Assembly: GCA_012800855.1 (NCBI GenBank)
Contig: JAAZIN010000108.1
Location: 1-39,651 of the forward strand
Source of the DNA: Bacillota bacterium
Lineage (GTDB): Bacteria > Bacillota > Dethiobacteria > DTU022
DNA: 39,651 nt
Direction: 5' to 3'
A model generated the notes under the pieces. That model had not been told where the DNA came from. It ran no database searches and was given only the letters and a program-made list of their open reading frames with translations. Positions 29,073 through 32,227 of this stretch are shown here, one piece after another (the stretch's first letter is position 1; the number at the start of each line of letters is the position of its first letter). The position numbers were made by a program, and so were the translations under genes.

Positions 29073-31283
29073 ATGCTGCAGGTGGGAATACCGCGGGTGC
29101 TCTCCTATTACTACTACTATCCCTTTTACAAGGCTTTCCTGGAGCACCTGGGCTGCCGGGTGGTCCTATCCGCGCCCACCAGCGCCAGGACCTTGGAGCG
29201 GCTCTCCGTCTGCCCCACCGACGAGCCCTGTGTATCGGTTAAACTGGCCTTTCCCCATACCCTGGAGCTCATCGAAAGGGGGGTGGATTTTCTCTTTATA
29301 CCCACCCTGGTAAGCAAGGACAGCCACAGCTACTACTGCCCCAAGCATATCGGGCTGCCGGCCATGCTGCGCAGCGGGCTGGATCTGCCGCCCGGCAAGA
29401 TAATCTCGCCGAGCATCAACTGGCGCGAGGCGGCCCGGTCCACGCTGCACTCCTTCCTGGAAGCGGGACGAAGGCTTGGGCGGAGCGCCAGCGAGGCGCG
29501 GCGGGCATTTGCCGCGGCGCTCCGCTTCCAGAAGGGCTGCTTCCGCCTTGCCGTGGAGCGGCAGCTCACCGTGCTCGAACTTTACGAGCAGGCCGCAGGC
29601 GTGAAGCGCTGCGGGAGAAGAGAACTCCGCCGGGAGGCGAGGCATTCCGAGAGCGGCCTGCGCATCGGCGTGGTGGGGCACGGCTACATCCTTTATGACT
29701 ACATGGCCCACCATGTCGTGGAGCGGCTGCGGGAGCATGCCACGGTCCTCGTTCCCGAGATGGTCCCGCCCGAGGCGATCCGGGAGAGCCTGCACCGTAC
29801 CGCTTACGGGAAGGCGCTGTGGAGCTTCGAGCAGGCCATAGTGGGAAGCGCGCTCTACTGGCTGGAGCACCGCCTGGTGGACAGCCTTATCCTGGTGGCC
29901 CCCTTTGAATGCGGCCCCGAGGCGGTGATCGAGGTCTACCTGGAGGAGGCGGCGGAGAGCTGCGGCATCCCCTTCCTGGTCCTGACGGTGGACGAGCAGA
30001 CGGGTGAAGCGGGCCTGGTGACCCGGCTGGAAGCTTTCCTGGACACGCTCCGCGATAGCCAGCGCCTGCAGGGGGCGCTGCAGCCGCGCCTGCTGCCGGA
30101 GAAGGGGGAGCGGCGGGGGGCTCTTGTCGCGCCGCTGCCGGAAAAAAGGGTTCTCGGCTTTCCCAACATGGGCAATCTCGGCGCGGTCCTGGCCACCGTA
30201 TTTAACGGCGAGCTGGTGAACGCCGTGGCGCCCCTGCCGGTAACGCGGCGGACGGCCGAGCTGGGGGAGGAGTTGGCCCCCGAGTTTATCTGCTATCCCT
30301 TCGCCGTAACCCTGGGGCAGATGCGCCAGTGCCTGGAAGCCGGCGCCAACACTCTCATCATGGTGGGGGGGAAGGGACGCTGCCGTCTGGGATGGTATGC
30401 CGAGCTGCAGGAGATCCTGCTTAAAAGGGCCGGCTACAGCTTTGAAATGGTGGTCATCGATTCCCCCTTCCCGCTGCGGGAAAACTACAATCGCTTTCTG
30501 CAGGCGTTGCAACGCTTCTACGAACCGCGGCAGGGCCGCAAAGTAATCGCCGCTGCCCTGCTGGCCTTTTACAAGGCCCTCCTCACCGAGCGGGCCGAGA
30601 CCCTCTTCTACCGGCTGCAGGCCTGGGAAAGCCGGCGAGGTTCTGCCTATGCTCTTTTTTCTCTCTTCCTGCAGCGCCTGCGGGAGGCGGCCACTTTCGG
30701 TTCCGCACGAAGCGCCTTCCGTGAATACCTGCGCAGCTGCGCCGGGCTGAGCCTGGAGAAGGAGGCGCGGCCGCTAAAAGTGCGGCTCATTGGGGAGATC
30801 TACGCCGTTTTCGAGGAATACGTGAACCGGGAGCTTGCGCGCACGCTCGGGTCGCTGCCTGACATCCGCATTGAGGTGCAGCGCGAAGTTACGGTGATGA
30901 ACTGGCTGCGCTACAACATCATTAAGAGCCCGGCGCAGCTCCTGCGCCACCGCCAAATTAGCGCCGCCGCGCAGCCTTACCTGGAAGAGGCAGTGGGCGG
31001 GCACGGGCAGGAAAGCGTGGGGCTGGCGGTGCTGGCGCCGCGCGAGGGGATGGATGGCGTTATTCACCTCTGGCCCTTTACCTGCATGCCCGAAATTGTG
31101 GCCCAGAGCATCCTCACCCGGGTGACGCGGGATCTAAGCCTTCCCCTGCTGACGCTCATCGTCAACGAGCAGACCGGCCACGCGGGCATGATGACGCGCA
31201 TTGAATCATTCGCCCATATTCTCCTGGAGAGAAGGGCGTCGAAGGGGGAGAGGAAAAAATCTACTTCCTGGGTGTCGACGTAG
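29073..31283 (+). CDS. 2-hydroxyacyl-CoA dehydratase-like (DUF2229/COG3580-COG3581-type) protein with two fused related domains
   Basis: GIPRVLSYYYYYPFYKAFLEHLGCRVVLS, CPTDEPC, LVAPFECGPEAVIE...LTVDEQTGEAGLVTRLEAF (copy 1) and HLWPFTCMPEIVAQ...LIVNEQTGHAGMMTRIESF (copy 2); CYPF...GQMRQC...GGKGRCRLGWY. Confidence 0.85.
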   Translation: MLQVGIPRVLSYYYYYPFYKAFLEHLGCRVVLSAPTSARTLERLSVCPTDEPCVSVKLAFPHTLELIERGVDFLFIPTLVSKDSHSYYCPKHIGLPAMLRSGLDLPPGKIISPSINWREAARSTLHSFLEAGRRLGRSASEARRAFAAALRFQKGCFRLAVERQLTVLELYEQAAGVKRCGRRELRREARHSESGLRIGVVGHGYILYDYMAHHVVERLREHATVLVPEMVPPEAIRESLHRTAYGKALWSFEQAIVGSALYWLEHRLVDSLILVAPFECGPEAVIEVYLEEAAESCGIPFLVLTVDEQTGEAGLVTRLEAFLDTLRDSQRLQGALQPRLLPEKGERRGALVAPLPEKRVLGFPNMGNLGAVLATVFNGELVNAVAPLPVTRRTAELGEELAPEFICYPFAVTLGQMRQCLEAGANTLIMVGGKGRCRLGWYAELQEILLKRAGYSFEMVVIDSPFPLRENYNRFLQALQRFYEPRQGRKVIAAALLAFYKALLTERAETLFYRLQAWESRRGSAYALFSLFLQRLREAATFGSARSAFREYLRSCAGLSLEKEARPLKVRLIGEIYAVFEEYVNRELARTLGSLPDIRIEVQREVTVMNWLRYNIIKSPAQLLRHRQISAAAQPYLEEAVGGHGQESVGLAVLAPREGMDGVIHLWPFTCMPEIVAQSILTRVTRDLSLPLLTLIVNEQTGHAGMMTRIESFAHILLERRASKGERKKSTSWVST

Positions 31284-32227
31284 GCAGCCTTACCACCAAG
31301 ATCGTGCTTATCGACCGCGAGGGCACACCGGTATACACGTCGTACCGCCGCAACGAGGCGGGGCCCATCGAGGCGATCCGGCAGGCCTTTGCCGAAATGA
31401 AGAGCCTGCCGGTAAATCCTGTGGCCGCCGGAACTACCGGCTCGGGGCGCCACTTGGCGGCGGTGATGATGGAGGCGGACACGGTGGTGAACGAGATCAC
31501 CGCTCATGCCCTGGCCGCCCGCACCGTGGAGCCGAAGGTGCGCACGGTCATCGATATCGGCGGCCAGGATTCCAAGATCATCTACCTGAAAGACGGGGTC
31601 TCCGTGGGCTTTAACATGAACACCGTCTGCGCCGCCGGCACGGGATCCTTCCTCGACCACCAGGCCGCACGCCTGAACATCCCCATCGAGGAATTCGGCG
31701 ATTACGCCCTGCGTTCCACCAACCCGGTGGCCATTGCCGGACGCTGCGGCGTATTTGCCGAATCCGACCTTATTCACAAGCAGCAGCTGGGCTACCGCCG
31801 CGAAGACTTAATTGCCGGGCTCTGCCTGGCCCTGGCCAAAAATTACCTCACCAACGTGGCCCGCAACCGCAAGATTGAACCGGTAGTCCTTTTCCAGGGC
31901 GGGGTGGCCGCCAACAGGGGGATCCGCTGGGCCCTGGAGAAGCTGCTGCAGGTGGAGCTGGTTGTCCCCGAGTACTTCAAGGTCATGGGCGCTTACGGCG
32001 CCGCCCTGCTGGCGCGGCAGCGCTTCATGGAAGGTACGGTGAAGCACAGCGGCTTCCGCGGCATTGGCGCCGTGGCGGAGAGCGAATACCGCCCGCAGGG
32101 CTTTATCTGCGGCGACTGCGGCAACAGCTGCGAGATAAGCGAACTTTTCATTGGCGGCAGGCTGGCCGGGCGCTGGGGCAGCCGCTGCGGCAAGTGGGAG
32201 GCGAGGGCGCCGCAGACGACGGCCTAG
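31259..32227 (+). CDS. BadF/BadG/BcrA/BcrD-type ATPase (2-hydroxyacyl-CoA dehydratase activase), apparent AUC start or frameshift product
   Basis: IYFLGVDVGSLTTKIVLID nucleotide-binding motif lies upstream of the GTG at 31304 used in the ORF track. Fe-S cysteines in NTVCAAGTGSF and GRCGVFAESD; FQGGVAANRG; C-terminal CGDCGNSC. Confidence 0.85.
   Translation: MYFLGVDVGSLTTKIVLIDREGTPVYTSYRRNEAGPIEAIRQAFAEMKSLPVNPVAAGTTGSGRHLAAVMMEADTVVNEITAHALAARTVEPKVRTVIDIGGQDSKIIYLKDGVSVGFNMNTVCAAGTGSFLDHQAARLNIPIEEFGDYALRSTNPVAIAGRCGVFAESDLIHKQQLGYRREDLIAGLCLALAKNYLTNVARNRKIEPVVLFQGGVAANRGIRWALEKLLQVELVVPEYFKVMGAYGAALLARQRFMEGTVKHSGFRGIGAVAESEYRPQGFICGDCGNSCEISELFIGGRLAGRWGSRCGKWEARAPQTTA

Follow-up and report, generated by a model that had tools for sequence, protein, structure and literature searches.

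A probable AUC start codon on an acyl-CoA dehydratase activase gene, and candidate isoleucine-codon starts on other genes of its bacterial family

Introduction

Bacterial translation starts at AUU, AUC or AUA (together, AUH) are usually described as rarities, known from infC and a few other genes. Near-cognate starts are repressed by the initiation factor IF3; infC opens with ATT in E. coli and with ATC in Streptomyces, and a GTC start is described for sigR (PMC5472188). In S. aureus, infC, ccpN and citZ start with AUA and cvfC1 with AUU, and in poor medium reporters for ccpN, citZ and cvfC1 reached about 10% of the output from AUG (PMC13009471). Biochemical work indicates that AUU is a weak start when read by the CAU anticodon and that IF3 disfavours it (PMC10158994). 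An A-rich tract in phase, together with an upstream purine-rich element, is a trait of another known system, the −1 frameshifting of dnaX and of insertion elements.

Here we describe a locus in a 39,651-nt stretch of DNA (the window; contig JAAZIN010000108.1 of assembly GCA_012800855.1, genome G000) from a Bacillota bacterium of the class Dethiobacteria, in which an acyl-CoA dehydratase activase gene overlaps the end of an upstream gene, ORF1. For the missing start codon of the activase, the initial annotation had offered three explanations, namely AUC initiation, a programmed −1 frameshift and a homopolymer sequencing error. The first is well supported, by canonical starts at the aligned codon of orthologues, by ATT in a sister species, by dN/dS and by isoleucine starts on nusA, obg, infC and speE, while the other two fared poorly. 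The activase is thus very probably translated from AUC at 31259–31261, as part of a wider habit of AUH starts in the family.

Like infC genes that begin with AUU, AUC or AUA, the activase would have an isoleucine start codon after a Shine-Dalgarno (SD) sequence, and its N-terminus is without a canonical start. Unlike infC, which autoregulates through IF3, it is a metabolic enzyme activator without a known link of that kind, and its start is ATG, GTG or TTG in other genera. It shares with ccpN, citZ and cvfC1 of S. aureus a near-cognate AUH codon and an SD sequence on a gene other than infC; the S. aureus work covers four sites with ribosome data, whereas the set suggested here, which includes obg and nusA, is larger and comes from sequence alone (PMC13009471).

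Results

The activase frame has no canonical start before an internal GTG

The activase frame is open from 31205 to 32227, following a TGA at 31202–31204 (coordinates read back from the window), and when read from that TGA it contains no ATG, GTG or TTG upstream of GTG 31304. Each coordinate given for this frame in the initial annotation was re-read and is correct, as is its reading of ORF1 through to the TAG at 31281. The GTG falls within the nucleotide-binding domain, and a protein truncated at this codon would lose the motif GVDVGSLTTK, which agrees with the earlier description of an internal codon beyond the essential motif. The SD-like tract reported before the ATC is likewise present, directly upstream of AAAAA-ATC. 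Relative to ORF1, the activase is read in the −1 frame, and the two genes share 25 nt. The longest version of ORF1 begins at ATG 29043 (746 aa), although the positions at which homologue alignments begin make ATG 29073 the more likely start (Table 1).

Table 1 Features of the ORF1–activase locus in window coordinates
Feature	Coordinates	Strand	Remarks
ORF1, DUF2229 + COG3581/HGD-D-like	29073..31283	+	~736 aa from ATG 29073
Purine-rich Shine-Dalgarno region GGGGGAGAGG	31244..31253	+	AAGGAGG in sister species L043
A6 tract, proposed slip site	31254..31259	+	AAA AAA in ORF1 frame
ATC, proposed start codon	31259..31261	+	ATT in L043; ATG/GTG/TTG in other genera
Acyl-CoA dehydratase activase, HgdC-like	31259..32227	+	322 codons counted from ATC
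ORF1 stop TAG, within activase gene	31281..31283	+	25-nt overlap
GTG, first canonical start-type codon of activase frame	31304..31306	+	Internal Val of KIVLI

Profile searches with Pfam and NCBIfam models place the activase in the BcrAD_BadFG / TIGR00241 family, with scores above the curated cut-offs (PF01869, 171 bits against 31.5; TIGR00241, 188 bits against 125.4). By sequence it belongs to the same family as the HgdC-type activators of structures 1hux and 4eht (2.3e-41 and 8.2e-38), from which it differs in a longer C-terminus with additional Cys residues and in its partner, an unusual fusion protein of DUF2229/COG3581-like type. Aligned to HgdC (1hux), the activase matches from the ATC codon onward, with a query that also began at ATC, and in the full open frame the Pfam domain match starts at residue 22, three residues past the ATC. 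These two results therefore put the activase N-terminus at or near 31259. Because the HgdC residue opposite this codon in 1hux is itself an Ile, an isoleucine read there during elongation would also be tolerable.

ORF1 matches DUF2229 (9e-43), and its match to HGD-D in the profile search is weak. Its distribution is narrow, with 13 of the 98 class genomes giving a match at E <= 1e-110. In other members of the family, the two halves of ORF1 are matched at ~33–38% identity by a DUF2229 gene and a separate COG3581-like gene (G016:C172:2442-5553 and similar loci), which suggests that two adjacent genes fused to give ORF1.

Orthologues carry a canonical start at the aligned codon

The ORF1–activase junction was read in named contigs from GTDB, which for the most part belong to the 13 ORF1-bearing genomes of the class, and in every junction read the activase overlaps the end of ORF1 in the −1 frame. 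All ten orthologues outside the genus have a canonical start at exactly the aligned codon: ATG in eight (L032, L034, L035, L036, L039, L040, L041 and L042), GTG in L033 and TTG in L037. These starts are mostly preceded by purine-rich SD-like sequences, and the A6 slip site is absent from the junction in all ten. The genus itself is represented by two species, that of the window (G000) and L043 (= G017), one other genome of the genus. The latter has ATT at the aligned codon with AAGGAGGAAAAGAAAAA before it, retains the A6 tract, and has an in-frame stop 11 codons upstream of the ATT with no canonical start. A comparison of the junction in relatives, proposed with the initial annotation as a check, thus gave ATT with A6 in the sister species and canonical starts without A6 in the other genera. 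CTG 31268, considered as an alternative start, is CTT in L043 and hence not conserved.

Together these comparisons indicate that the absent start codon is neither chance nor a one-off error, the latter because L043 also lacks a canonical start. The window does come from a fragmented draft genome of 170 contigs, in which a wrong base or homopolymer call could hide a true A7 (and with it a fused ORF) or a true ATG. Against this, an independent assembly of a diverged species (dS ~0.64) has the identical A6 and again a non-ATG codon, the differences between the two species follow third codon positions, and the phenomenon recurs on other genes. The homopolymer error put forward earlier, or any comparable assembly error, is on this evidence very unlikely.

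The region upstream of the internal GTG is under selection in the activase frame

Between G000 and L043, dN/dS over the 322 aligned activase codons is 0.076/0.64 (~0.12), and over codons 1–15, from the ATC to the internal GTG, it is 0.061/1.42 (~0.04), with seven of the nine differences in those 15 codons at activase third positions. The low dN/dS and the third-position differences therefore argue that the region before GTG 31304 is translated in the activase frame, from or just before the ATC/ATT. We take this pattern to mean that the activase is a living gene whose reading begins at about the ATC. The start codon has been lost relative to other genera, as it would be if the gene were decaying or if only a short, N-truncated form were made from GTG 31304. 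Such decay or truncation is highly improbable given selection over the whole gene that is stronger still upstream of the GTG, the retention of GVDVGSLTTK, which a GTG start would delete, and the GTG itself, which encodes an ordinary Val within the conserved KIVLI and has no SD sequence.

The A6 tract is a poor candidate for programmed frameshifting

The selection pattern is compatible with either initiation or frameshifting, and isoleucine starts were therefore looked for elsewhere in the genome. Programmed −1 frameshifting on the A6 tract (G AAA AAA T) would fuse ORF1 and the activase into one protein, the three-domain product envisaged in the initial annotation. The tract is in the correct phase, follows a purine-rich tract and is retained in the sister species, and neither species of the genus has a canonical activase start. 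Unlike in dnaX and insertion elements, however, the junction has neither a downstream structure nor a conserved slip site, and the activase of relatives has its own start. The heptamer at the junction is G AAA AAA rather than the usual A AAA AAG, and although it is in phase, P-site re-pairing would be imperfect compared with an X XXY YYZ heptamer. The RNA downstream of A6, folded as a further check that the initial annotation had proposed, is no more stable than shuffled sequences (z +0.54 in the window and +0.48 in L043). No fused single-ORF homologue was seen among the 98 class genomes, where the open frames of ORF1 matches span 332–798 aa, and in-frame AAA AAA is common (80 of the 150,502 codon pairs in long ORFs). 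Furthermore, canonical starts are also missing from nusA, obg and speE, which have no comparable overlap, and frameshifting is not needed to account for them. The frameshifted fusion is accordingly improbable; the little probability that we leave it is owed mainly to the A6 beside the activase start, a somewhat uncommon setting for a start codon (AAAAA directly precedes the start in 11 of 1214 SD-plus-start ORFs).

Initiation at the AUC probably uses the ordinary machinery

As a near-cognate AUH start, the activase codon has no canonical start upstream, an SD-like element before it and canonical starts at the aligned codon of its orthologues. In the mechanism that we propose, the ancestral ATG, GTG or TTG start would have turned into ATC or ATT in this genus, the upstream purine-rich SD sequence would direct initiation at the AUC, and ordinary fMet-tRNA with its CAU anticodon would read the codon with a third-position mismatch. 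Ribosomes terminating on ORF1 would probably assist by translational coupling through the 25-nt overlap. We infer that initiation occurs at the AUC itself with this coupling, that its yield is reduced and that it responds to IF3. Such a start would fit the family-wide use of AUU, AUC and AUA on a set of conserved genes. The SD match is weaker in G000 than in L043 (GGGGG against GGAGG).

A pattern search for initiator tRNA returned only the normal CAU initiator and no variant with an isoleucine anticodon. Aberrant IF3 was also considered and rejected: the sequence is ordinary and can be aligned with solved IF3s over its full length. In the window, the SD region is predicted to pair partly with the first activase codons (31225–31300; z −1.64 in G000), and such pairing may favour coupling to ORF1 translation.

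Candidate isoleucine-codon starts on other conserved genes of the family

A coding-signal scan for an isoleucine codon with an SD sequence upstream of any canonical start, covering 647 kb (about a third of G000), returned 11 candidates among 531 genes, of which some six or seven, infC included, look real by homology. The same scan of 200 kb of E. coli K-12 returned one candidate, infC at its annotated ATT. It did not pick up pcnB, which is also annotated with an ATT start in those 200 kb; its sensitivity is thus incomplete.

Across the family, infC has GGAGGTGAAAAAG-ATT or a similar arrangement (ATT in G000); in G025 and G026 the frame upstream of it holds no canonical start. nusA (L084:5263, G000:C23; L185) has no canonical N-terminal start, and AAAGGAGG is followed by ATT-TCG-GTT. 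This gene opens with ATT in G000, G016, G017 and G026, with ATC in G025 and with ATG in G013 and G018; the ATC of G025 and ATT of G026 repeat the ATC/ATT alternation seen on the activase.

For obg (L057:16139-16141, G000:C2; L198–L206), the genus has ATC as the start, and a second genus of the family has ATT or ATA. Its starts are ATC in G000 and G017, ATT in G020 and G021, ATA in G022, GTG in G016, TTG in G026, and ATG in G013 and G018, whereas 30 other Bacillota have ATG (25), GTG (3) or TTG (2). An isoleucine start is therefore present on obg in five of nine family members and in none of the 30 others (Fisher p = 0.0002, relatedness ignored).

The spermidine synthase gene speE (L115, minus strand, offset 2570; G000:C154) starts with ATC, where relatives have TTG at approximately the aligned codon; in G017 it has ATC at the aligned codon and also an SD-less ATG 14 codons upstream. 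In G017, hypA (L158:1700-1760; G017:C286) opens at ATA, with position 1 of the HypA model on that codon, and in G026, pyrF (L178, minus strand, offset 1501; G026:C48) opens at ATT, with a stretch of 12 codons free of canonical starts.

It is possible, at somewhat less than an even chance, that AUU, AUC and AUA serve regularly in this lineage as start codons of a lower tier, used by ~1% of genes, including nusA, obg, infC, speE, hypA, pyrF and the activase, with drift between AUH and NUG starts among sister species. This lineage-wide pattern, drawn from about a third of one genome and from targeted genes in relatives, appears to be the interesting part of the result and depends on comparing sequences. 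A limited literature search found no description of obg or nusA repeatedly starting with AUH codons in this lineage. If true, such a tier would point either to relaxed third-position checking at initiation or to a shared set of IF3-controlled genes, although the sequences of IF3 and of the initiator tRNA look ordinary, and sister species that exchange ATT, ATC, ATA, ATG, GTG and TTG at one position would allow comparative tests of how start-codon stringency evolves. Here, gene callers limited to ATG, GTG and TTG remove functional N-terminal sequence, for example the activase's nucleotide-binding motif; automatic annotation would truncate these genes because their starts appear to be isoleucine codons.

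Two further genes of G000 are weaker cases: a pycB-like gene (pyruvate carboxylase subunit B; L097, minus strand, offset 13977; G000:C36), which seems to start with ATA or ATT, and an ABC ATPase gene with a candidate ATT start.
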